Shown here: in pieces, positions 110 through 36,226 of the stretch
How the letters are laid out: every line of letters starts with the position of its first letter
Numbering within the stretch: position 1 is the first letter of the stretch
NCBI GenBank assembly: GCA_004299485.1
Contig: SCQP01000016.1
Span: 277,842 to 314,995, forward strand
Reading direction: 5' to 3'
DNA length: 37,154 nt
From: Acidobacteriota bacterium
Lineage (GTDB): Bacteria > Acidobacteriota > Terriglobia > Terriglobales > SCQP01
Made by a program: the position numbers and the translations under genes
Notes under the pieces: generated by a model
The model's database searches: none
The model's input: only the letters and a program-made list of their open reading frames with translations
Told to the model about the DNA's origin: nothing

Positions 110-536
110 GATCCAGGCGCACCGTCGGGTTGGGATTATATTGCGAGTCGGTGCGGGTTTTGCTGCGGTGGCCCTGCCATTCGGCGTAGACCTGGTAGCT
201 GGCGCCGGGCTGCAGATCGTGAAAGGCGTAGGCGCCGCGCTCATCGGTGATCACGTTGTGGATCACATTGGACTTCATGTTCTTGAGGACCACGATGGCG
301 GAGGCGATGGGCTGGTTCAGGGCGCTGAGCACCGTGCCGTAGATACTGCGGCCCAACGGCGGCGCTTGCTGCGCGCCCATGCTCACGGCCAGCGTCAACA
401 GCAAGGCCGCCAAGGCCTGCGCCTTTTGACGGGCGCGGGGCCGGGGGGGGCTGCGCCACGCCACCCGCTTAACGCTCGGCCGGGCTGGGAGCCCCGGGAG
501 CCCCAGTCCGGCCCCCGCGTTACGCGAGCCACTCAC
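90..536 (-). CDS. Small secreted carboxypeptidase-regulatory-like (CarboxypepD_reg) protein
   Basis: 148 residues from a GTG at 536. This start overlaps the stop of the upstream gene as GTGA, so translation is probably coupled. Residues about 37-57 form a hydrophobic export signal ending near GAQQ. The rest ([20 protein letters not shown], then [20 protein letters not shown]) is one beta-sandwich carboxypeptidase-regulatory-like domain of the kind that precedes Oar-type TonB receptors; here it stands alone. Residues about 6-36, before the signal peptide, are encoded by repeat copy A1 and are probably not ancestral. A later start inside the repeat (GTG giving MAWRSPPRP) would give a conventional signal peptide. 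Role unknown; likely periplasmic or surface-exposed. Confidence 0.7.
428..521 (+). repeat. Dispersed palindromic repeat family A, copy A1
   Basis: About 94 bp matching the other A copies: GGCGCGGGGCC at the left, CTGCGCCACGCCACCCGCTT in the middle, then a hairpin with arms GGGCTGGG and CCCAGTCC (one G-T pair). It lies wholly inside the reading frame of the minus-strand secreted protein, between its start codon and its signal peptide, and contains no stop in that frame. Its first hairpin is degraded by a G-run, so it looks like an older copy. Confidence 0.8.
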
Positions 537-2112: not shown

Positions 2113-2140
2113 GAGCTAGAGCCGCACGCAAGCAGCAACG

Positions 2141-2250
2141 TGGCTCGCCACTTATTGCCCTGGTCGCTCCCGATGGTCGCTTGGAGTGTGGGCTTCGATT
2201 CCCGGCCGGGTCCGCCCGCTGGCGCTCCGGGCTCCTCCAAGCTGCCGCCA
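2141..2250 (+). repeat. Dispersed repeat family B, copy B1
   Basis: A 110-bp unit identical at 107 of 110 positions to copy B2 at 34461-34570. It begins TGGCTCGCCACTTATTGCCC and ends GCTCCTCCAAGCTGCCGCCA. Arms GCTTGGAG and CTCCAAGC can pair. It lies between the yebC stop and the ketosynthase start. One frame through it is open and joins the ketosynthase frame, so an automatic gene caller could wrongly extend that gene to 2140. Confidence 0.9.
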
Positions 2251-5892: not shown

Positions 5893-7419
5893 ATGGCGTT
5901 TGCCGATTTACGCGAATTCATCGCCGCCCTGGAACAAGCCGGAGAACTGAAACGCATCCGCGCCGCGGTCGACCCGGTACTGGAAATCACCGAGGTCACC
6001 GACCGCGTCAGCAAACGCGGCGGCCCGGCACTGCTGTTTGAAAACCCTACCGGCTACGCTGGTCATCCGCTGCTTATTAACCAAATGGGTTCGCGCCGCC
6101 GCATGGCGATGGCGCTTGGGGTCAATCAAGTAGATGAAATCGCCGCGCGCATCCGCGCCCTGCTCGAAATGAAACCGCCGGAGGGTTTGCTGGGCAAGCT
6201 GAAGATGTTGCCCAAGCTGGCCGAAATGGGCGCCTTTTTCCCGCACACGGTCAAATCCGGCGCCTGCCAGGAGGTCGTGAAGCGAGCAGATTTTTCGGTT
6301 CTCGATTTTCCGGTTTTGCAGTGCTGGCCAGAAGATGCCGGCCGCTACATCACGCTGCCGCTGGTGTTCAGCAAGCATCCGGTCAGCGGACGGCGCAACG
6401 TGGGCTTGTACCGCTTGCAGGTTTTCGACGGCCAGACGCTGGGCATGCACTGGCAGATTCACAAGCAGGGCGCGGATCACCTGCGTGAACGCCAGCGCGC
6501 GCTGGGGGAGGCGGGCGGCGAGGTGCTCCGCCGCGCCCACGGTTTGCCCGCGGTGCAGGCGCCGCTCGACCGCTCCCCCCAGGGTGAGCGCATGGAGGTC
6601 GCCGTCGCCATCGGTACCGATCCGGCCACGACGTTTGCCGCGATTCTGCCGGCGCCGCCTTCGCTGGACGAAATGATGCTTGCCGGCTTCCTGCGCCAGC
6701 ATCCCGTGGAACTGGTCAAATGCCAGACGGTGGATTTGGAAGTCCCGGCCTGCGCCGAAATCGTGCTCGAGGGTTACGTCGATCTGGGCGAGCGCCGGCG
6801 CGAAGGCCCCTTCGGCGACCACACCGGCTTCTACTCCCTCGCGGATGACTACCCGGTGCTGCATCTCACCGCCATCACCCATCGGCGTGATCCCATTTAC
6901 GCCACGACGATCGTCGGCAAACCGCCCATGGAAGACGGCTGGATGGGCGAGGCCATCACGCGCATCTTCCTGCCGCTGATGCAAATGCAGTTCCCCGAGA
7001 TTGTGGATGTGAATCTGCCCGTTGAAGGCGTGTTTCACAACCTCATGATCGTCAGCATCCGCAAGGCGTATCCCGGCCATGCGCGCAAGATCATGAACGG
7101 CATCTGGGGTCTCGGGCAGGCGATGTTCACCAAGTGCATCGTCGTCGTGGACGAGGATGTCGACGTGCAAAATATTCCCGATGTGGTCCTGAAAGCCTTC
7201 AATCACATCGATCCGGAGCGCGACATTCAATTCACGCTCGGTCCCGTGGACGCCCTCGACCACGCTTCGCGCTTGCCCAACTTCGGCTCGAAAATGGGTG
7301 TCGATGCGACGCGCAAATGGCCCAGTGAAGGCTTTCTCCGCCCCTGGCCGGGCGAAATTCTCATGGACGCTGCCACCAAGGCCACCGTCGACGCCCTCTG
7401 GCCGAAGTTGGGTCTCTAG
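5893..7419 (+). CDS. ubiD: UbiD family prenylated-FMN decarboxylase
   Basis: 508 residues, normal UbiD length. Conserved stretches include FADLREFIAALEQAGELKRI at the N-terminus, NVGLYRLQVFDGQTLGMHWQ and AVAIGTDPATTFAAILPAPP in the middle, and the signature EGPFGDHTGFYS with nearby acidic residues used with prenylated FMN. UbiD/MenA-type decarboxylases act on 4-hydroxybenzoate-derived quinone precursors or, in other branches, on futalosine-route menaquinone intermediates or aromatic acids. A quinone role is most likely but is not shown by neighbours, as no ubiX or other quinone gene is in the window. The TAG stop forms part of an inverted repeat shared with the convergent gene. Confidence 0.92.
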   Translation: MAFADLREFIAALEQAGELKRIRAAVDPVLEITEVTDRVSKRGGPALLFENPTGYAGHPLLINQMGSRRRMAMALGVNQVDEIAARIRALLEMKPPEGLLGKLKMLPKLAEMGAFFPHTVKSGACQEVVKRADFSVLDFPVLQCWPEDAGRYITLPLVFSKHPVSGRRNVGLYRLQVFDGQTLGMHWQIHKQGADHLRERQRALGEAGGEVLRRAHGLPAVQAPLDRSPQGERMEVAVAIGTDPATTFAAILPAPPSLDEMMLAGFLRQHPVELVKCQTVDLEVPACAEIVLEGYVDLGERRREGPFGDHTGFYSLADDYPVLHLTAITHRRDPIYATTIVGKPPMEDGWMGEAITRIFLPLMQMQFPEIVDVNLPVEGVFHNLMIVSIRKAYPGHARKIMNGIWGLGQAMFTKCIVVVDEDVDVQNIPDVVLKAFNHIDPERDIQFTLGPVDALDHASRLPNFGSKMGVDATRKWPSEGFLRPWPGEILMDAATKATVDALWPKLGL

Positions 7420-7532
7420 AGCAAAACCAGACTTGGTGTAGCACGCTCGGCCGGAGTGCGTGCGGCTTCTCCTGGTGTCGAAGCCGCAAACGACCCGGGC
7501 CGCCGGGCTATAGCAGGTCTGGTTTTGCTCTA
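7417..7532. repeat. 116-bp inverted-repeat element between convergent genes; possible bidirectional terminator
   Basis: The 16-base arm TAGAGCAAAACCAGAC at 7417-7432 is repeated exactly in inverse orientation at 7517-7532. The first three bases of each arm are the stop codons of the two convergent genes (ubiD and the PHP phosphatase). The interior holds two more hairpins (GCACGC/GCGTGC, and TGCGGCTTC/GAAGCCGCA) and a CCCGGG-rich part. It could end transcription from both sides or be an inserted palindromic element. It shares ACGCTCGGCCGG with family A but is otherwise different. Confidence 0.75.
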
Positions 7533-10786: not shown

Positions 10787-11908
10787 TTAGTTTACCAAGG
10801 CCAGCGTCTCCGCAAACGGCCAAGCGGCATCCACCCATTGCCTCTCCAGCCGGAAGCCGGCCTCCGTCAACAGGTTACGGATGTCGCGCAGGCGGTATTT
10901 GTGCGAGCTTTCCGTCCAGATGGTCTCGCCCCGCGCAAACTCGAACACCTCGCCGTCTGGAAGTCGCACGCGCTGCGCCCGCCGCGCCCGCAGGTGCATT
11001 TCCACCCGCCGCTGGCGCGCCCGGTAGACCGCGCGGTGCTGCCATTGCGCCAAGTCAAAATCCGTTCCCAGCTCCCGGTTCAGCCGCGCCAGCAGATTCT
11101 TATTGAACGCCGCGGTCACGCCCGCCGGATCGTCATACGCGCGGCGCAACAGCGCCGCCGGTTTAACCAGATCGAGCCCGAGCAGAAGGCCATCGCCGGG
11201 CTGCAGCAGATTGCACAGGTCCTGCAAAAATGCGACCGCATCCGGGGGATCGAAGTTGCCCAGCGTGCTGCCCAGGAACAAGACCAACAAGGGGCGCCTA
11301 CTCAGTGGCACGGCCACCTCTTGTTGGAGCCGCCCTCCCGGTGGTCGGGCTGGAGCCGAGCGTCGCTCCCCGGCATTGGACGGCCGCCGGCACTCAGAGC
11401 GTCTCCAAGTTGTCTCGTCAGGGGCCTGCCGGCGCCGGCGCGCAATCGTTCGCAATCCCTGTACGTACTCCTCGGCCAGTGGCTCGACCTCCAGGCCCGC
11501 GATCGCGGCCAGCTCGCGTTGACTGCGCTCCAGGGCATAGGACGAAATTTCAATGGGCCAATAGCGCGTTGGCGGCCGATCGTCTTTTCTGCCGGAGGTC
11601 AGAGCCCGCAAGATCCAACGCGTCTTGCGCGCACTGCCGCTGCCCAGCTCCGCCACCATCACGCCGGAGCGGAAGGGCGCGATCATTTCGCGGGCATGCG
11701 CGCGCAGCAGCCGTTCGTCGGCGGCCGTCAGTCCGTACTCCGGCAAAGCGCATATGGCCTCAAACAGCAGCGAGCCCACTTCGTCGTACAAGTATTTGCA
11801 AGGCAGGCTCTTCTGGCCCTCCCGCAGTAACCCGGCGCGAGCCGCTTGCAGCAACTCGTTATCACTGGATTCCTCGGGCAGTGCGGGGAGCGTTAGAGTC
11901 TCAGCCAT
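10787..11908 (-). CDS. egtD: L-histidine N-alpha-methyltransferase EgtD, with in-frame repeat insertion
   Basis: 373 residues; the family is normally about 320-330. Conserved parts are [30 protein letters not shown], the SAM motif [24 protein letters not shown] and the C-terminal [13 protein letters not shown], which includes the Glu/Ser that hold histidine. The enzyme trimethylates histidine to hercynine, the first ergothioneine step. Residues about 165-201, a run rich in Arg, Pro and Ser, have no place in the family and are encoded by a diverged copy of repeat B; removing them restores normal length. The insertion falls between the [12 protein letters not shown] helix and the [10 protein letters not shown] strand. 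egtB lies 6 bp upstream. Confidence 0.92.
11305..11415 (+). repeat. Diverged family B repeat inside egtD (copy B3)
   Basis: Clear but degraded similarity to copies B1 and B2 in the same relative orientation on the plus strand. Shared blocks include CCAC...TTG, CCCG-TGGTCG, GGAG, CCCGG, CGC-GGC-CTC and CTCCAAG-TG, in the same order and spacing. The gene reads the complement. The frame is unbroken and adds about 37 residues. Ends are approximate. Confidence 0.7.
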
Positions 11909-11914
11909 GTTGTC

Positions 11915-13126
11915 CTAGCTGACGCACCGAAAGCCGGCGTACACATAAGGATAGCTGGGCTGGAACCAGTTGCGAAAGCTGCGCCGCAACAGACAGGCCG
12001 CGGTACGCGCCGAACCGCCTTTCATCACGAAATGCTTGCCGTCGAAGAAATTGGCCGAATAACCGGGATAGAAATCGAATGCGGAAAAGCCTGGGAACGG
12101 CGCGAACGGCGTCGCTGTCCATTCCCAGCCGTTGCCGACCAGATCTTCCACGCCCCAGGCGCTGGCGGCCTCGGGAAACGCCGTGGTCGAGGCCGGATCC
12201 CAGCCGCGCAGATCGAAATTGCCGGCGGCGCGCTGGGGCGCGGCTTCGCCCCACGGAAAACTGCGCTCGCTGCCATCGCGCGTGCCATAGGTCATGCGGT
12301 GCCATTCCGCTTCGCTCGGCAAACGCGCACCCTTCCAGCGGCAGTAGGCGGTCGCTTCCGCGTGTGTGACGTAGACGGGCTGGTCGAGCGGCAGGGGCAC
12401 TTCGCCGAACATGCCGTGATAAAACCAAGTCGCGTCGTGCTGAGTCCAGAAATGGGGCGGTGCGGCGCCATCGTTCACGAACGCCAGATAGTCGCCGTTG
12501 GTCACCTTGTAGCGATCCGCCAAGAACGCCGTGACCGGTTCGGTGTGCGCCGGAAATTCGTTGTCCCAGCCGAAAGCGCCGCGCCGGTTTTGGCCGAGCG
12601 TAACGCAGCCTGCCGGAATGCCCACTGGCGCTGTCGCTGCTTTGACCGCTCCACTGCTCTGGCGCGGTGCCGGGCCCGGCTGTTTGTGCTCATACGGGAG
12701 GTTATGGAATAAATAGCTCAGCGTTTCCACATGCATCCAGCGGTGCTCCAGCGCCACCTCCAGCCGTTGCGCCACGGCTTCGCCTCCCTGCCGCGCCAGT
12801 GCGTCGCTGAGCCGCTGCCTCACGTTGCGATTGTAATCGCCGACTTCGCCGATCGCGGGCCAGGCCGAAGGGGGATCAGACGGCAGGGCGCCATCCACCG
12901 GATCAATGCCGAAGGCAAACAGCTTGTCCCACTCGGCGTGAAAGGGCTTCAGCTCCAGCGCCGGCGCCAGCAGGTTCCAGTCAAACGCCTCCAAGTGCCC
13001 GAGATAGAACACCAACCGATGCCGCTCCGGAACCGGGCGCTCGTACAGAGCCTCGGGCTTCACCGCCCGCCAGAGCTGATCGCTTGCCGCCTGCGCCTCC
13101 TGCCACCGCTGCAGCACCCCTGCCAT
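11915..13126 (-). CDS. egtB: Ergothioneine synthase-type nonheme-iron sulfoxide synthase EgtB
   Basis: 403 residues from ATG 13126, preceded by AGAGGAGGTG. The N-terminal DinB_2 part supplies iron ligands: His44 (LGHLEAFDW) and the H-x3-H pair His128/His132 in EHRWMHVE. The C-terminal half is a formylglycine-generating-enzyme-like domain (VPLPLDQPVYVTHAEATAYC, RLPSEAEWHRMTYG, VEDLVGNGWEWT, ending FVMKGGSARTA...GFRCVS). The family joins a thiol donor to hercynine with O2. EgtD directly follows, and no EgtA, EgtC or EgtE is near, so a short route with cysteine as donor, or use of enzymes elsewhere, is inferred. SenA (selenoneine) is a relative, but no senB or senC is present. Confidence 0.9.
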   Translation of the reverse strand: MAGVLQRWQEAQAASDQLWRAVKPEALYERPVPERHRLVFYLGHLEAFDWNLLAPALELKPFHAEWDKLFAFGIDPVDGALPSDPPSAWPAIGEVGDYNRNVRQRLSDALARQGGEAVAQRLEVALEHRWMHVETLSYLFHNLPYEHKQPGPAPRQSSGAVKAATAPVGIPAGCVTLGQNRRGAFGWDNEFPAHTEPVTAFLADRYKVTNGDYLAFVNDGAAPPHFWTQHDATWFYHGMFGEVPLPLDQPVYVTHAEATAYCRWKGARLPSEAEWHRMTYGTRDGSERSFPWGEAAPQRAAGNFDLRGWDPASTTAFPEAASAWGVEDLVGNGWEWTATPFAPFPGFSAFDFYPGYSANFFDGKHFVMKGGSARTAACLLRRSFRNWFQPSYPYVYAGFRCVS

Positions 13127-24625: not shown

Positions 24626-25567
24626 ATGACCACCGCCGAACGCCTCTACCGCACCCTCAAACAGGACATCATTACCTGCGCGCTGCGCCCGGGGCAGCCT
24701 TTCAGCGAGGCCGAGCTCTGCCGCCGCTACAAGGTCAGCCGCACCCCGGTGCGCGAGTCCTGCCAGCGCCTGCAGCGCGACGGCCTGATCACCATCGTCC
24801 CCTTCCGCGGCTACTTTATCGCCCCGCTCACGCTCGCCGAGTTCCATAACCTGCATGAAGTACAGCTCATCGTCGATCCCGCGGCGGCCGGCCTGGCGGC
24901 GCTGCGCGTGCAGCCGCAACAGCTCAAGGCGCTGGAACAGGCGGCCGAGTACGAGTACCGGGTGGGCGTGCGCGCCAGCTACGCCACCTTCCTGCAGCGC
25001 AATTTCAACCTGCACGTAGGCATCGCCCAGGCCACTCACAATGAGCATCTGGTGGAAATCGTGACGGCGATTCAGTCCCGGCTGATGCGCTTTTTTTATC
25101 TCATCATTGCCATGGACGCCTACGGACCGCAGCTCGTGCACGAGCACGAGCTCATCATGGACGCCATCCGCGCCCGCCGGCCCGACGAAGCCCGCCAGCG
25201 CGCCGCCGAACACGTCGCCCAGACCGTCCGCCGCTCCGCCGGGGTCTTCATGACGGCCACGGAAGCGCGCCTGGGCGAGCTCATCACCGAACCCAGCAGC
25301 CTGATGGGCGCCCCCTCCGAACCGCATCCGCTGGCGGAAGCCGCCGCCGTTATGGGCTGGCCGAGCGCGGCGGCGCCCCTCAACGATGCCGCCGCCCTGC
25401 AGCGCGGCCGCGCCGGCGTCGAAGTCCGGCCCGCGCTGCTGCCCACTCCGCGCCGGACATTGACTGGCGCGGGGCCCCGCGGGGCGGCGCCACGCGACCC
25501 GCTTAACGTCCGGCCGGGCTGCGGACCCGTGAATCCCCGGCCCGGCCGGCCGCGGAGGCGTTCGTGA
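24626..25567 (+). CDS. GntR family transcriptional regulator, FCD domain
   Basis: 313 residues from ATG 24626. The winged-helix domain occupies residues 1-70 (TLKQDIITCALRPGQPFSEA, then RRYKVSRTPVRESCQRL and LITIVPFRGYFI). An all-helical FCD ligand domain follows with conserved metal or ligand histidines (FNLHVGIAQATHNEHLVEIV, VHEHELIMDAIRARRPDEA, AAEHVAQTV). FCD regulators normally end near residue 230; the last 80 residues are low complexity, and residues about 278-309 are repeat copy A2. The stop overlaps the hyuA start as GTGA. It likely represses its own operon in response to a hydantoin, oxoproline-like or other carboxylate ligand. Confidence 0.88.
   Translation: MTTAERLYRTLKQDIITCALRPGQPFSEAELCRRYKVSRTPVRESCQRLQRDGLITIVPFRGYFIAPLTLAEFHNLHEVQLIVDPAAAGLAALRVQPQQLKALEQAAEYEYRVGVRASYATFLQRNFNLHVGIAQATHNEHLVEIVTAIQSRLMRFFYLIIAMDAYGPQLVHEHELIMDAIRARRPDEARQRAAEHVAQTVRRSAGVFMTATEARLGELITEPSSLMGAPSEPHPLAEAAAVMGWPSAAAPLNDAAALQRGRAGVEVRPALLPTPRRTLTGAGPRGAAPRDPLNVRPGCGPVNPRPGRPRRRS
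25459..25553 (+). repeat. Dispersed palindromic repeat family A, copy A2
   Basis: Starts ATTGACTGGCGCGGGG like copies A4 and A5 and includes CACGCGACCCGCTTAACG and the second hairpin GGGCTGCGG...CCCCGGCCC, with one mismatch. It is the most distant of the plus-oriented copies. It encodes the end of the GntR regulator without a stop and finishes just before the GTGA junction with hyuA. Confidence 0.75.
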
Positions 25568-27552: not shown

Positions 27553-29285
27553 ATATCAGAGAGCAGCGCAGCCGCGGCTTGGGGCCTCGGGGCCCCCAAG
27601 CTGCGGCGAGCACAAGCGGGAAGCGCGGCGCGCACAACCCGCGCGGTCAGCATCGGCCCCGGGCAGCCGCGCAGGGACCCGCGCCAGTAAACGACGGGAT
27701 TGAGCTGGCGATCTTTAAAAGCGCCTTTCACGCCATCGCGCAGGAGATGGGCGTGGCGCTGCGGCGCACCGCTTTTTCGCCCAACATCAAAGAGCGGCGC
27801 GACTACTCCAGCGCCTTGTTCAACGCCGCCGGTGAGGTCATCGCCATGGGCGATGACATGCCCGTACACCTCGGATCCATGCCCATGTCGGTCGCCGCCG
27901 CGCTCAAGGCACTCGCGCTCGAGCCCGGCGACGTCGCCATCCTCAACGATCCCTACGAGGGCGGCACCCACCTGCCCGACATCACCCTGGTTATGCCCGT
28001 CTTCGCCGGCTCCGGCCGGGCCCGGCGCCGGCCGGAGTTCTATGTGGCCAACCGCGCCCATCATGCCGACGTCGGCGGCACCTATCCCGGCTCCATGGGA
28101 CTGTGCCGTGAGATTACTCAGGAAGGCATTCGTATCCCGCCGCTGAAGCTGATGCGCCGCGGCCAGCTCGACCAGGGCCTGCTGCGCCTGATCCTCAGCA
28201 ACGTCCGCACGCCGCAGGAGCGCGAAGGAGACCTGACGGCGCAGCTGGGCGCCTGCCGCATTGGCGCCGCGCGCCTCGAGGCCTTGGCGGCCAAGTACGG
28301 CTTGCCGCGCCTGGAGCGCAACATGGCCGCGCTGCTCGATCACTCCGAGCGCCTCATGCACGCCGAACTGCGGCGCATGCCCGGGGGCACGTTTACTGCC
28401 GAGGATTTTCTTGACGACGATGGCCTCGGTTCCGGCCCCATCCGCCTGCACGTCGCCCTCACGCTCGATCCGCGCCGCGCCCGCGCCAGGGTTGATTTTT
28501 CCGGCAGCGATCCGCAGGTCACCGGCAGTGTCAACGCCGTCGCCGCCATTACCTACTCGGCCACGTTTTACGTTTTCCGGTGCCTCCTGCCGCCCGAGGC
28601 CGCACCCACGGCGGGGCTGATGCGCCCGGTCGCCATGGTCATCCCGCCCGGCAGCGTGCTCGACGCGGGTCCGCCCGCCGCCGTCGCCGCCGGCAACGTC
28701 GAATGCTCGCAGCGCATCGTCGATGTCCTGTTGCGCGCCTTCGCGCAAGCGCTGCCCGACCGCATCCCCGCGGCCAGCAGCGGCACGATGAACAACCTCA
28801 CCATCGGCGGCCAATATCCCGCTGGCGATCATCGCGCCGGCCAGCCTTACGCTTATTACGAAACCTGCGGCGGGGGCATGGGCGCCGCGCCCGATGCCGA
28901 CGGCCTTTCCGGCGTGCACACGCACATGAGCAACACCCTCAACACGCCGGTCGAAGCGCTCGAGTACGCCTATCCGTTCCGCGTCCATCGCTACGCCTAC
29001 CGCCGCGGCTCCGGCGGCACGGGAAAGTTTCGCGGCGGCAATGGTCTCATCCGCGAAGTAGAAGTGCTTGCGCCCGCGCAGGTCACGCTGTTGTGTGAAC
29101 GCCGCCGCTTCGCCCCCTACGGTCTGAACGGCGGGTCGGATGGCGCCTGCGGCCGTACCCTGCTGGTGCAGGACGGCGAGGAACGCGAACTGCCGGGCAA
29201 GACCAATCTCCTCGTTCCCGCCGGCGCCCGCATCCGCCTTGAATCACCCGGCGGCGGCGGTATGGGCAAATCCGGTAGATCCTAA
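27549..29285 (+). CDS. hyuB: Hydantoinase/oxoprolinase subunit B (HyuB-like)
   Basis: 578 residues from GTG 27549, overlapping the hyuA stop. From residue 51 it is a normal Hydantoinase_B: ELAIFKSAFHAIAQEMGVAL, RRTAFSPNIKERRDYSSALF, GDVAILNDPYEGGTHLPDIT, FYVANRAHHADVGGTYPGSM, PGGTFTAEDFLDDDG and YETCGGGMGAAPDADG. HAD and HHAD-type residues bind metal for the hydrolase step. Residues 7-47, Arg/Gly/Pro-rich, are encoded by repeat copy A3 in the inverse direction. Without them the protein has a usual length of about 535. The 3' end overlaps the convergent GNAT gene by 4 bp. Confidence 0.9.
   Translation: MNIREQRSRGLGPRGPQAAASTSGKRGAHNPRGQHRPRAAAQGPAPVNDGIELAIFKSAFHAIAQEMGVALRRTAFSPNIKERRDYSSALFNAAGEVIAMGDDMPVHLGSMPMSVAAALKALALEPGDVAILNDPYEGGTHLPDITLVMPVFAGSGRARRRPEFYVANRAHHADVGGTYPGSMGLCREITQEGIRIPPLKLMRRGQLDQGLLRLILSNVRTPQEREGDLTAQLGACRIGAARLEALAAKYGLPRLERNMAALLDHSERLMHAELRRMPGGTFTAEDFLDDDGLGSGPIRLHVALTLDPRRARARVDFSGSDPQVTGSVNAVAAITYSATFYVFRCLLPPEAAPTAGLMRPVAMVIPPGSVLDAGPPAAVAAGNVECSQRIVDVLLRAFAQALPDRIPAASSGTMNNLTIGGQYPAGDHRAGQPYAYYETCGGGMGAAPDADGLSGVHTHMSNTLNTPVEALEYAYPFRVHRYAYRRGSGGTGKFRGGNGLIREVEVLAPAQVTLLCERRRFAPYGLNGGSDGACGRTLLVQDGEERELPGKTNLLVPAGARIRLESPGGGGMGKSGRS
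27568..27690 (-). repeat. Dispersed palindromic repeat family A, copy A3 (inverse, diverged)
   Basis: Read on the minus strand it starts TTTACTGGCGCGGG and contains CCCGCTTG and the hairpin GCTTGGGGGCCCCGAGGCCC, in family A order, but it is about 25 bp longer and more diverged. It lies between the start codon and the conserved body of hyuB and leaves the frame open. Confidence 0.6.
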
Positions 29286-29812
29286 AAGTCCAGCTCCAGC
29301 CGCAGTGCGTCCAGATCCGCGGCGTAGTAGCCTGGCAGCAGCCGCGTCATGTGATAACCCAAACGCGCGTAAAACGCCAGTGCGCCGGCGTTGTTCACCG
29401 CCGCTTCCAGCCGCATGCCGCGCGCCCCGCGCGCGCGATAATACGCCTCGGCGTTGCGCATCAGCTCCTGCCCTATTCCCTGCCGCCGCGCCTCCGGCGC
29501 CACATCAACCGTGATGACGTGCCCCCGGCCTATTGATTGGCGCGGGGCCTGGTGTGGCTGCGCCACACCACCCGCTTGACGCTTGGCGGGGCCGGGGGCC
29601 CCAGGATCCCCGGCCCGGCCCTCGCGTTTGCCCAGCGCGCTCAGCAGCACGGCGGCCAGCCGCCCCGCGCGCGAGCAGCCCTGATGAAACCCCGGCATCC
29701 GCAAGTACGCGGCAATTTCTTCCGCGCTGTAGGCAATCCCGACCGGAAAACAGCGCTGATCGAGCGCAAAAATCTCGGCCACATCCGCTTGCGTCAACCC
29801 GCGGTAATCCAC
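29282..29812 (-). CDS. GNAT family N-acetyltransferase (RimI-like) with in-frame repeat insertion
   Basis: 176 residues. The N-terminus is LTQADVAEIFALDQRCFPVG. The acetyl-CoA site is GHVITVDVAPEARRQGIGQE followed by LM (R-x-x-G-I-G), then MRLEAAVNNAGALAFYARLG and YYAADLDALRLEL, all standard for RimI-like acetyltransferases acting on protein N-termini or small amines. Residues about 62-94 (rich in Gly, Pro and Gln, containing GGVAQPHQAPRQS) are repeat copy A4, placed just before the beta-4 strand that binds acetyl-CoA. Without it the length is about 144, the usual size. Function may be altered but the frame is kept. Confidence 0.87.
   Translation of the reverse strand: MDYRGLTQADVAEIFALDQRCFPVGIAYSAEEIAAYLRMPGFHQGCSRAGRLAAVLLSALGKREGRAGDPGAPGPAKRQAGGVAQPHQAPRQSIGRGHVITVDVAPEARRQGIGQELMRNAEAYYRARGARGMRLEAAVNNAGALAFYARLGYHMTRLLPGYYAADLDALRLELDF
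29532..29628 (+). repeat. Dispersed palindromic repeat family A, copy A4
   Basis: About 97 bp: ATTGATTGGCGCGGGGCC, hairpin 1 TGTGGC-TGC-GCCACA, CCACCCGCTTGACGC, hairpin 2 GGGCCGGGG...CCCCGGCCC, and CTCGCGTTT. Both hairpins carry compensated changes relative to copy A5. It is embedded in the GNAT gene, which reads the complementary strand. Confidence 0.9.
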
Positions 29813-29821
29813 TCTGTCAGC

Positions 29822-30151
29822 TTAGCGAAGAAAGCCTCCGGCGACCCTGCCGATCACGCGGCCGGCGATCAGTCCCACCACTGCCGCAAGCGCCATGCCG
29901 GCTTCCGGGTGCCGCCGCAGTTGCTGATAGGGCATCAGGTTGCGGGCTTTGCTCCGGACGCGGCGGCGCAGGGTCGTGATGGTATCGACCATCGCGCCGC
30001 GCTGCTCTACCAGGCGGCGGTTGAGTTCCGGCATGGACATTGATTGGCGCGGGGCCTGACGTGGCTGCGCCACGCCACCCGCTTGACGCTCGGCCGGGCT
30101 GGGGGCCCCGGGATCCCCAGCCCAGCTCTCGCGTACTGTTGCATGCGACAT
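29822..30151 (-). CDS. Small membrane-associated protein, DUF3618/YqjD-like, with repeat insertion
   Basis: 109 residues from ATG 30151, which has GGAGGCG at the right distance. Residues 39-77 (PELNRRLVEQRGAMVDTITT LRRRVRSKAR) are a basic amphipathic helix like DUF3618. Residues about 83-105 (AGMALAAVVGLIAGRVIGRV) form one membrane segment as in ElaB/YqjD proteins, thought to tether ribosomes or envelope. Residues 6-38 are repeat copy A5. The sequence ATGTC(G)CATGC at the start recurs after the repeat as ATGTCCATGC, so the original protein probably began MSMPELNRR. It follows another small membrane protein by 19 bp. Confidence 0.72.
   Translation of the reverse strand: MSHATVRESWAGDPGAPSPAERQAGGVAQPRQAPRQSMSMPELNRRLVEQRGAMVDTITTLRRRVRSKARNLMPYQQLRRHPEAGMALAAVVGLIAGRVIGRVAGGFLR
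30039..30135 (+). repeat. Dispersed palindromic repeat family A, copy A5
   Basis: The best-preserved copy. It starts ATTGATTGGCGCGGGGCC, forms hairpin 1 CGTGGC-TGC-GCCACG and hairpin 2 GGGCTGGGG...CCCCAGCCC, and ends near CTCTCGCGT, which can pair with the left CGCGGGG. It is flanked by GCATGGACAT (30031-30040) and GCATGCGACAT (30141-30151), a probable target duplication. Confidence 0.9.
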
Positions 30152-32615: not shown

Positions 32616-34460
32616 ATGACGAATTCAGTTTGCATGAGCCGTCGCCGCCTTTGGCCTTTTCTTTTGTTTACCGGCCTGATTCTGCTCAGTGCCGGCGGCT
32701 GTAACACCTATTACATTCCGCCGCCGCCGCTGGCCATCTCGCTCGCGGCCACCACCAGCAATCTCGTCATCTCCTCCCTCAATGCCGACGGTCAGGTCGT
32801 GCCCTCCAGCCTGGCGATGGTGGGCCAGATCGCTAACACCTCCAACCCCACCATCCTTTATGCGGTGGGTCAGGACGGCAAGTACGTGCAGGGCGGCAAC
32901 GCGGTTTTGGGCTTCATCACACCGGATGGCGTCTACCAGGCGCCGCTGGTCGTGCCCAGTCCCAATCAGGTCGTGATTCAGGCCACCGCCGCCGCCGAAA
33001 CCACCAAGACCGCGACCTGGACGCTCACCCTGCTGAATCCCACCGCCCTGGTTACGGGCGTGACGCCCAGCATCGTCACCGCGGGCCTGCCCGTCAGCTT
33101 CGATGTCCTTGGCACCAATTTTGCCCAGGGCGCCACCATCGACATGAGTGGGGCCTCGATCACCGGTACGCAATTAATCAGCCCGACGGAAATGAAAGTC
33201 GCGGCGAACATCGAGCAGCCCGGCATGCTGGGGCTGAGCGTCATCAACCCGGATCCTTTTGGCCCGCCCAATTCGGTCCTGGTCCGCAGCCTGCCGACGA
33301 ACCCCGCTACCGCCAGCGCCATCGCTATCACCGCCGTTCAGGCCGGCACCGATTCCAGCGGTAAGCCGCTGATCGCCAGCGAAGCCTACGTGCCGCAACC
33401 GGCAGCCCTGGCCGTGGTCAATCTCGATTCGGGGCAGCAGATCGCCACCGTGAACATGCCGGCCGGTTATCAGCCCAGTCTGGCCGCCGCTGATCCTGCG
33501 GGCAATCGCATTCTCGTGGCCAGTGCCGCCAGCAACCTGTTGCAGGTCGTGGATGCCAGTCAGAATTCGGTCGTGAGCTCTTTTGCACTTCCGGTCAACA
33601 CCGCGGTGACCGTCAACGGCACCTCCTGCATGGTCTGCGCCATGCTGATCGACAGTGCGCGGCATCTGGCGATTCTCGATACCGCCGCCGGCTATATCAC
33701 GCTCGATCTCAACACCGGCAAGACCTCCGCCGCCATCGCCGTGCCCGCCAGCTTCAATTTCGCCTATGACTCCCGCACCGAACGTATCTTTGCGCCGTTC
33801 GTGGCTGCCAGCGGCGCGAGCGGGGTCGATATTCTCAACTTGCAACAGGGCACGGTCGTCACCCTCTCGCCGCAAGGCGCCTTTTTCGGTACCCAGACCG
33901 CCGGTGCCGCATGGGATCCTACCAGCGGCGAACTCACGGCTGCCGATAGCGCCGCCGGAACGTTCCTGAATCTGAATCTCAACAACGCTGCGATTCAAGG
34001 AAGCACGAGCACGGCGCCTGCCGCGCAGTTTACGGTGACCAGCGGCTGCGCGCTGCCCTGGCGCGGCATGGATGTGGATTTGGTCGGCCATCTGGGCTGG
34101 CTTGCGAATACCGGCGGCTGCATCGCCGTGGTTGGGTTGCCGAAGGCCGCCGTCAACGGCACTCCCGCCCAGCCCAATCCCCTCCGCTGGGGACGCGTGC
34201 CCTCCGCCCCGGACGGCCTGCCTTGGCAGAGCAGCACCCTCGCGCAGCCGTCCACTATGGCCGTTTACACTGGCTCCGACGGCCGCGCCTACGGCCTTGT
34301 CCTGCGCCAGGATGGCCTCTTTCTGCTGAAAGTCGATCTCAGCCTGCTCCAGCAGGCGCCGGCTGTTGCCGGCGGCTTCGACAGCAACCAGGTCGACCCC
34401 ACGCAAGCCACGCAGGCTGGCCAGACGGTCTCCGCCCTCACCTACATCCGCCTGCACTAG
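32616..34460 (+). CDS. IPT/TIG-domain lipoprotein with beta-propeller-like repeats
   Basis: 614 residues from ATG 32616; a second ATG at 32634 would give a tighter signal peptide. The N-terminus RRLWPFLLFTGLILLSAGGC gives a lipoprotein signal with Cys near residue 29, then a Pro-run (YYIPPPPLA). An IPT/TIG immunoglobulin-like fold follows (VTGVTPSIVTAGLPVSFDVL, GTNFAQGATI). The rest shows repeated short beta motifs (AVVNLDSGQQIATVNMPAGY, GNRILVASAASNLLQVVDAS, HLAILDTAAGYITLDLNTGK), as in YVTN-type seven-bladed propellers. Probably a cell-surface binding protein; ligand unknown. Its stop codon directly abuts repeat B2. Confidence 0.8.
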   Translation: MTNSVCMSRRRLWPFLLFTGLILLSAGGCNTYYIPPPPLAISLAATTSNLVISSLNADGQVVPSSLAMVGQIANTSNPTILYAVGQDGKYVQGGNAVLGFITPDGVYQAPLVVPSPNQVVIQATAAAETTKTATWTLTLLNPTALVTGVTPSIVTAGLPVSFDVLGTNFAQGATIDMSGASITGTQLISPTEMKVAANIEQPGMLGLSVINPDPFGPPNSVLVRSLPTNPATASAIAITAVQAGTDSSGKPLIASEAYVPQPAALAVVNLDSGQQIATVNMPAGYQPSLAAADPAGNRILVASAASNLLQVVDASQNSVVSSFALPVNTAVTVNGTSCMVCAMLIDSARHLAILDTAAGYITLDLNTGKTSAAIAVPASFNFAYDSRTERIFAPFVAASGASGVDILNLQQGTVVTLSPQGAFFGTQTAGAAWDPTSGELTAADSAAGTFLNLNLNNAAIQGSTSTAPAAQFTVTSGCALPWRGMDVDLVGHLGWLANTGGCIAVVGLPKAAVNGTPAQPNPLRWGRVPSAPDGLPWQSSTLAQPSTMAVYTGSDGRAYGLVLRQDGLFLLKVDLSLLQQAPAVAGGFDSNQVDPTQATQAGQTVSALTYIRLH

Positions 34461-34570
34461 TGGCTCGCCACTTATTGCCCTGGTCACTCCCGATGGTCGC
34501 TTGGAGTGCGGGCTTCGATTCCCGGCAGGGTCCGCCCGCTGGCGCTCCGGGCTCCTCCAAGCTGCCGCCA
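34461..34570 (+). repeat. Dispersed repeat family B, copy B2
   Basis: A 110-bp unit with three mismatches to B1. It starts the base after the lipoprotein stop and ends 4 bp before the stop of the convergent DinB gene, filling the whole gap. A hairpin of this type could serve both genes as a terminator. Confidence 0.92.
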
Positions 34571-35215: not shown

Positions 35216-36226
35216 ATGCTGAGTCCCGTGCTCTGGTGCTATGGCGTCTTTGGCGCCGTTATCGTGACTGCCATCATCACGCTGTGCGTGCGCCGCGGTG
35301 GCGACGCGGTCCTGTGGTTGGGCGCGGTCTGCTATGCCGCTCCGCTGGCGGCCTTCGGCAGCCAACATCTCACGCTCCACCGCGCCATTGCCGCTTTGAT
35401 ACCGCCCTGGATTCCCTGGCACGATTTCTGGGCGTACTTTGTGGGTACCTGTTTCATCGCAGCCGGCCTCAGCCTGGTGACCCGCGTCCAGGGACGCCTC
35501 GCCGCCAGCCTGGTCGCGCTCGTCTTTTTTCTCTTCGTCCTGCTCATGGATATCCCAGGGTGGTTGCATCAGCCCGGCAATCGCTTCGCTCTGGCGCTGG
35601 CGCTGCGGGAGCTTGCCTTCAGCGGTGGCGCCTTGGCGGGCGCCGCAGCGCTCACGGGCCATCGATTGGCGCGGGGCCCGGCGTGGCTGCGCCACACCAC
35701 CCGCTTGCCGCTCGGCCGGGCTGGGGGCCCCGCGAGCCCCAGCCCGGCCTTCACGGGCGATCGACGCCTCAGCGAAATCCAAGCCACGGCGGCGCGCTAC
35801 TTTGTCGCCATTGCAATTCTGTATTACAGTTTGGAGCAATTTCTGCATGCGAACTACGTGCCCGGCATTCCGCTGAACCGGGTCACGCCGCCGGGCCTTT
35901 TCGGCCACGCCTTCTGGACGTATTTCGCCGCCGTCATCTACGCCGTCGCCGGCGTGCTCTTGCTGCGGAACAAGCACACGCGCAGCGCCGCCACCGCACT
36001 TGGCGCCACCGTGCTGGTGGTGGTCGCCGCCGTTTACGTCCCCATGGCAGTGGCGCTGCGCAATCTCATCGGCTTCAACTTTCTGGCCGACACGCTCATG
36101 TTCGCCGGCGCCTTGTTTCTGCTCGCGGCGGCTATGCCCGTCACGCCATCAGCGAGCGCTGGGGACCATGAGCGGGATAAATCCAGCGAGCCCCGAGCCC
36201 GCGCAGCCGGTCCCAGCTTGCCGTGA
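35216..36226 (+). CDS. Duplicated-domain membrane protein (DoxX-like) with in-frame repeat insertion
   Basis: 336 residues from ATG 35216, preceded by CTGAGGGAA. Two similar halves, each about four membrane helices: the first contains IPWHDFWAYFVGTCFIAAGL, the second GHAFWTYFAAVIYAVAGVLL, each followed by a run ending in an SGGALAGAAAL or FAGALFLLAAAM helix. This points to internal duplication of a DoxX/DUF-type four-helix unit. The linker between the halves (residues about 149-181) is repeat copy A6. The C-terminal 28 residues are hydrophilic and overlap by 86 bp, on the other strand, with the metallo-beta-lactamase-fold gene. Function unknown. Confidence 0.78.
   Translation: MLSPVLWCYGVFGAVIVTAIITLCVRRGGDAVLWLGAVCYAAPLAAFGSQHLTLHRAIAALIPPWIPWHDFWAYFVGTCFIAAGLSLVTRVQGRLAASLVALVFFLFVLLMDIPGWLHQPGNRFALALALRELAFSGGALAGAAALTGHRLARGPAWLRHTTRLPLGRAGGPASPSPAFTGDRRLSEIQATAARYFVAIAILYYSLEQFLHANYVPGIPLNRVTPPGLFGHAFWTYFAAVIYAVAGVLLLRNKHTRSAATALGATVLVVVAAVYVPMAVALRNLIGFNFLADTLMFAGALFLLAAAMPVTPSASAGDHERDKSSEPRARAAGPSLP
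35660..35757 (+). repeat. Dispersed palindromic repeat family A, copy A6
   Basis: Starts ATCGATTGGCGCGGGGCC, with hairpin 1 GTGGC-TGC-GCCAC and hairpin 2 GGGCTGGGG...CCCCAGCCC. It is flanked by TCACGGGCCATCGA (35652-35665) and TCACGGGCGATCGA (35751-35764), 13 of 14 identical. The distance between these flanks is 99 bp, exactly 33 codons. The gene reads it in the sense direction, as GHRLARGPAWLRHTTRLPLG. Confidence 0.9.

Follow-up and report, generated by a model that had tools for sequence, protein, structure and literature searches.

It is highly probable that the egtD gene described here was entered in frame by a mobile repeat of family C, one of many elements of three families (A, B and C) which have entered genes of the same genome, and that the interrupted enzyme still works. 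The stretch of DNA analyzed (37,154 nt, G000:C16:277842-314995; hereafter the window) lies within a 3.30-Mb genome which is 98.8% complete. On the basis of EgtD, its nearest named relatives are metagenome-assembled Acidobacteria/Acidobacteriales genomes. The gene, the insert and the two family B copies of the window are as follows.

10787-11908, minus strand: egtD, L-histidine N-alpha-methyltransferase (TIGR03438 and PF10017), 373 aa, with an in-frame interruption
11305-11418, plus strand: family C mobile repeat in egtD, 103/113 identical to the C consensus (91%), with near-full copies elsewhere in the genome
11419-11422, plus strand: 3' flank of the insert, with G at +4, fitting the target motif NNNG
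2140-2250, plus strand: B1, family B, 111 nt, intergenic, 107/111 to the B consensus
34460-34570, plus strand: B2, family B, 108/111 to the B consensus; it begins with the final base of the upstream gene's TAG stop

The preliminary description of this DNA had reported a diverged family B copy of about 37 residues at 11305-11415. An in-frame mobile repeat in egtD was borne out, and the placement was almost exact, as comparison with the other genomic copies gave ends of 11305-11417 (113 nt) plus a terminal T at 11418, or 114 nt. The canonical orientation of family C corresponds to the plus strand, and egtD reads the element antisense, at about residues 164-202. The alignment of the insert in order with B1 and B2 was reproduced with shuffled controls. 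The score against B1 was 60.5 (dinucleotide shuffles: mean 1.3, sd 7.9, maximum 31; z 7.5) and z against B2 was 8.6, with 0/1000 shuffles scoring as high in either case. Shared ancestry with family B was thereby upheld, whereas membership of that family was not, since the sequences closest to the insert are family C copies: a genome search recovered about ten of them at 87-91% DNA identity over 106-118 nt. Other measured C copies are 89-98% identical to the consensus, and the egtD copy at 91% is near that range. An old decayed B copy was therefore ruled out. The further proposal that a divergence greater than that between B1 and B2 implies an old insertion also fell, as this divergence is one between families and the insert is absent in four congeners.

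The elements measure 96 nt (A), 111 nt (B) and 114 nt (C). The C consensus is GTGGCACGGCCAC...CAAGTTGCCGCG(T), and it shares 82/116 positions (71%, z 12.2) with that of B, which makes the two sister families. The genome holds at least 40 copies of family A, 112 strict matches to family B (a reversed control pattern gave 0) and about a dozen near-full copies of family C together with an older subfamily, so that the repeats number well over a hundred, all family copy numbers being lower bounds. Members of the older C subfamily (L015, L017, L018, L019, L021, L022) contain, always at the same internal site, a 39-nt hairpin (CGCTGCCACCCCAAGCCGC..GCGGCTTGGGGGCCCCGG), which may be accompanied by a 5-bp duplication (CGCTG). 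The other species of the genus have B/C-like subfamilies of their own, about 74-85% identical, and few occur outside the genus; G000, G001, G003 and G004 are rich in B/C elements, and the relatives G002 and G005-G010 are poor in them. With respect to folding, family A forms strong hairpins (z -3.3 and -4.8), while B and C gave z of -0.6 to -1.5 with a hairpin in the right half only. The elements have sharp ends, and the only terminal signature is GTGGC / GCCGC; in B and C the two ends match over 5-6 nt, imperfectly. No parent transposase-bearing element matching these ends was found. Within the window, five family A copies were located, three of which lie within genes or at their ends (GNAT, DoxX-like and GntR/FCD).

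426-520, plus strand: family A element, close to where a minus-strand ORF (90-464) starts
25459-25547, plus strand: family A element, supplying the C-terminal end of a GntR/FCD regulator (24626-25567)
29532-29627, plus strand: family A element in frame in a GNAT acetyltransferase gene (29285-29821, minus)
30039-30134, plus strand: family A element, at the 5' end of a short ORF on the minus strand (29822-30040)
35661-35755, plus strand: family A element in a DoxX-like gene (35216-36226, plus)

The window also contains, between convergent genes at 7417-7532, two 53-nt arms which are 75% complementary and spaced by 10 nt; these may be a terminator or another element. No Rfam family was found across the window.

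EgtD was present in 54/60 of the relatives' genomes searched. All four same-genus EgtDs lack the insert and gave two almost adjoining match blocks at its position. Between alignment positions 146 and 211 the window protein has 66 residues, three same-genus proteins have 28, the rest have about 21-28 and one distant relative has 41. The excess of 66 over 28 residues is 38, which equals the 114-nt C element; the insertion proposed in the preliminary description thus stands, and its size is 38 rather than about 37 residues. Elements of families A, B or C were sought in about 109 other EgtD loci and none was found, nor was the same insert present in EgtD from genomes lacking the family. The distant relative (L046, the G042 egtD) has its own expansion of about 20 residues in the same loop, which did not match families A-C. 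The closest EgtD without an insert has only 60-65% protein identity, too little for a base-by-base reading of the empty site in egtD DNA.

The egtD product scored 310.5 bits against TIGR03438 (curated cut-off 290.9) in two stretches flanking the insert, and PF10017 (Pfam) likewise matched in two stretches. Its relatives in the PDB are 4pim and 4uy5, the EgtD of Mycobacterium smegmatis, which has the same fold and core residues and lacks the 38-residue loop. An AlphaFold2 model built from a 49-sequence alignment had a mean pLDDT of 89.9 and matched 4pim (36% identity) and 6fnr. Mapped on this model the insert forms a loop with pLDDT of 57-68 within surroundings of about 91-98. The predicted fold is intact and the insert is modelled as a low-confidence, flexible loop, predicted to be disordered. 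Residues Y41, Y58, G213, S214, N218, Y258 and E333 are invariant among the 49 EgtD sequences and S335 nearly so. The enzyme with its insert most likely still works, the loop being tolerated rather than used.

In-frame copies within genes were found for all three families: 17/41 for A, 12/68 for B and 4/13 for C, or 33/122 (27%), as classified by a self-trained codon-usage model applied to the flanks, which assigned 92% of test pieces correctly. Since 53% of random positions were classed as genic, the elements are depleted in genes, yet common there. The claim that family B, too, can enter coding sequence was confirmed by these 12 copies, and exact empty sites are available for one. In an M24 peptidase the B copy accounts for exactly 37 extra residues, placed between PLPHRG and FVVMDYGV, and the two flanks are contiguous in four congeners. 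Examples among conserved genes are listed below.

L273:15417-16670: M24 peptidase with family B in-frame repeat
L121:2-2221: RNase R with family A in-frame repeat
L263:942-3899: UvrA with family A in-frame repeat
L123:2-2134: DnaE with family A in-frame repeat

According to Pfam, the element splits or directly flanks single domains in RNase R (RNB), SRAP, the NIR_SIR reductase, UvrA, the M24 peptidase, ThiE and a glycosyltransferase (GT2), and the DnaE copy sits between domains. Five frames of family B are open, including all three sense frames, and 0/12 genes use the latter; genome-wide, 12/12 intragenic B copies lie antisense to their gene despite the open sense frames, and are read in the two antisense frames that are open, which are more hydrophilic than the other three. 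Family A copies in genes are mainly in that family's own most hydrophilic frame. These data suggest that the peptide, once translated, is subject to a filter, with mainly hydrophilic frames surviving in genes. Intragenic copies were neither clearly older nor clearly younger than the others by percent identity (B 96.8 vs 97.0%, A 92.1 vs 91.3%).

With respect to the mode of insertion, nested copies were sought by pairing BLAST pieces, most of which paired by chance, and by a stricter joined-flank test. The latter gave one clean case, in which a B element is interrupted by a C copy, an insertion of 114 nt with no duplicated target. Together with the B copy in the M24 peptidase, it shows that elements of 111 and 114 nt insert without target duplication, the frame being kept. 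In the 3' flank, G at +4 (NNNG) was observed in 63/68 B copies (p 5e-24) and 12/13 C copies. Neighbouring copies were co-oriented in 113/132 cases, and neighbours of different families in 64/73; the target motif and polarity figures are from sampled copies. Orientation did not follow gene direction, which was ruled out by 142 co-oriented against 134 opposed genes. GC3 skew was +0.035 in genes co-oriented with the elements and -0.224 in opposed genes (p 2e-13), so the elements run along the G-rich, presumably leading, strand. The polarity flips several times per contig (C1, C7, C8, C14 and C16; DnaA is at C1:493671), which exceeds what a single origin and a single terminus would produce and counts against a simple replication polarity; the flips may come from rearrangement or misassembly. 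For IS608 and ISDra2 the cited passages describe single-strand insertion at the lagging-strand template (PMC6006769). By analogy, insertion of this kind would give the observed polarity. No reverse transcriptase (PF00078) was found in the 98.8% complete genome, and a search of the same genome for a Y1/HUH transposase (PF01797) gave 0 matches.

We considered whether the peptide has been domesticated, for example as a regulatory loop or as a contact surface for the adjoining EgtB-like enzyme. The neighbours of egtD are an EgtB/OvoA/SenA-like gene and guaB; the protein encoded at 11915-13126 scores on the OvoA, EgtB and SenA models, below each curated cut-off. That adjacency would suit domestication, as would the ten changed positions of the egtD copy relative to the C consensus, eight of which fall in the right half. 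These substitutions hit nine codons, however, and 8/9 of the changes are nonsynonymous, which neutral drift would also give; their concentration in the hairpin-capable right half is as expected for a dead copy, and the changes look neutral. The earlier suggestion that the insert had since evolved as protein is thus, as a statement of constraint, unsupported. As the insert is also predicted to be disordered and similar inserts occur in many unrelated proteins, we regard domestication as unlikely. Whether the polarity and abundance of the elements reflect a chromosomal function, as for KOPS or another polar motif, rather than their mobility was weighed against the same body of data. Polarity tracks GC3 skew and is common to A and to B/C, as such a function would predict, but the elements have sharp ends and a target motif, insert precisely in genes, form species-specific subfamilies and include a nested copy, all of which indicates a mobile element, and a polar motif of 100 nt in several unrelated families would be unusual. 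This explanation is improbable, if somewhat less so than domestication.

Two further alternatives were considered. Repeats of such length are frequent in this genome and can mislead short-read assembly, so that a repeat might have been misjoined into egtD when this metagenome-assembled genome was assembled or binned. A misjoin agrees poorly with a copy which differs from the consensus at 10 positions and keeps the frame exactly to the base, and dozens of further genes have the identical precise pattern; we consider it very improbable indeed. Equally hard to credit is an element removed after transcription, like an intron, or bypassed in translation to leave a normal protein. The elements do fold into hairpins, strongly so in family A, but the Rfam search of the window is against it and the bias towards hydrophilic frames makes sense only if the insert is translated. 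In Rickettsia, moreover, a gene carrying an insert of this kind is translated with the insert included, according to the passages cited from a review (PMC2229807). We infer that the insert in egtD is likewise translated as part of the protein.

The closest parallel in behaviour is provided by the Rickettsia palindromic elements (RPEs), reportedly described by Ogata et al. in 2000. In the cited passages these are 100-150 nt long, form several families per genome and lie in frame in conserved genes such as that for DNA polymerase III alpha, where the extra peptide is tolerated; a guanylate kinase with an RPE insert was tested and still active (PMC2229807, PMC10969869, PMC3767692). Families A, B and C share the approximate size, the presence of several families in one genome and in-frame insertion in conserved protein genes. 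They differ in their host, a GC-rich member of the Acidobacteriota, in frame-neutral insertion of 96, 111 or 114 nt without target duplication, in the weakly palindromic character of B and C over their whole length, and in replication polarity and the NNNG target, neither of which is stated for RPEs in the passages cited above. The likeness noted is one of behaviour. By this analogy A, B and C act like RPEs and appear to be a separate, frame-neutral system; they were not classed as RPEs, given that B and C lack a whole-length palindrome and that the host belongs to a different phylum. No paper on such repeats in Acidobacteria was found in the literature library searched.

ERIC and the 107-bp Correia/NEMIS elements are presented in the cited review passages as intragenic MITEs, small and non-autonomous, with open frames and in-frame fusions, and with terminal inverted repeats, target duplications and TA ends (PMC2229807). 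B and C are likewise small non-autonomous repeats fused in frame to genes, but their ends match imperfectly and their insertions leave no duplication. Its absence at exact 111- and 114-nt insertions led us to reject a MITE. REP/RAYT and IS200/IS605 elements also do not duplicate their target. As single-strand elements these have, in the cited passages, a sequence-specific flank and a link to the replication strand (PMC6006769), features which B and C share. REPs are 20-40 nt (PMC3733652), and A, B and C are longer; a REP/RAYT system was rejected on the absence of the Y1 transposase.

In the explanation we favour, a non-autonomous family C repeat of 114 nt, or 38 codons, entered egtD precisely and without target duplication, after the species split from its known congeners. 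The frame was kept because the length is a multiple of three, the frame hit was open and its peptide is hydrophilic and Arg/Pro/Ser-rich, and the protein acquired a flexible loop, which lies between a helix and the strand preceding the LFLGSTLGN motif, with EgtD activity probably retained. A, B and C have spread genome-wide with fixed polarity relative to replication, B and C at the NNNG target, and have entered many conserved genes as in egtD. Transposition may pass through single-stranded DNA at the fork, on the lagging-strand template, with a mobiliser which presumably acts in trans or has since been lost. It is possible, if on balance doubtful, that this represents a previously undescribed replication-coupled single-strand mobilisation, in a lineage other than the Rickettsiales and in a genome lacking both a Y1 (HUH) transposase and a reverse transcriptase, in which lengths of 96, 111 and 114 nt are held to multiples of three, no target is duplicated and in-frame loops steadily arise in core enzymes such as DnaE, UvrA, RNase R and EgtD.

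Selfish repeats which often enter working genes are known chiefly from Rickettsia and Wolbachia. The cited part of a 2024 review describes the extent to which proteins are shaped by such insertions as unexplored, and regards their occurrence elsewhere as conceivable (PMC10969869). The present genus of GC-rich Acidobacteriota is an independent case, with over a hundred copies and exact empty sites in related species. The mobiliser can be approached through the strand polarity and the target motif, and the hydrophilic-frame filter together with the empty sites makes the origin of new protein loops testable across species.
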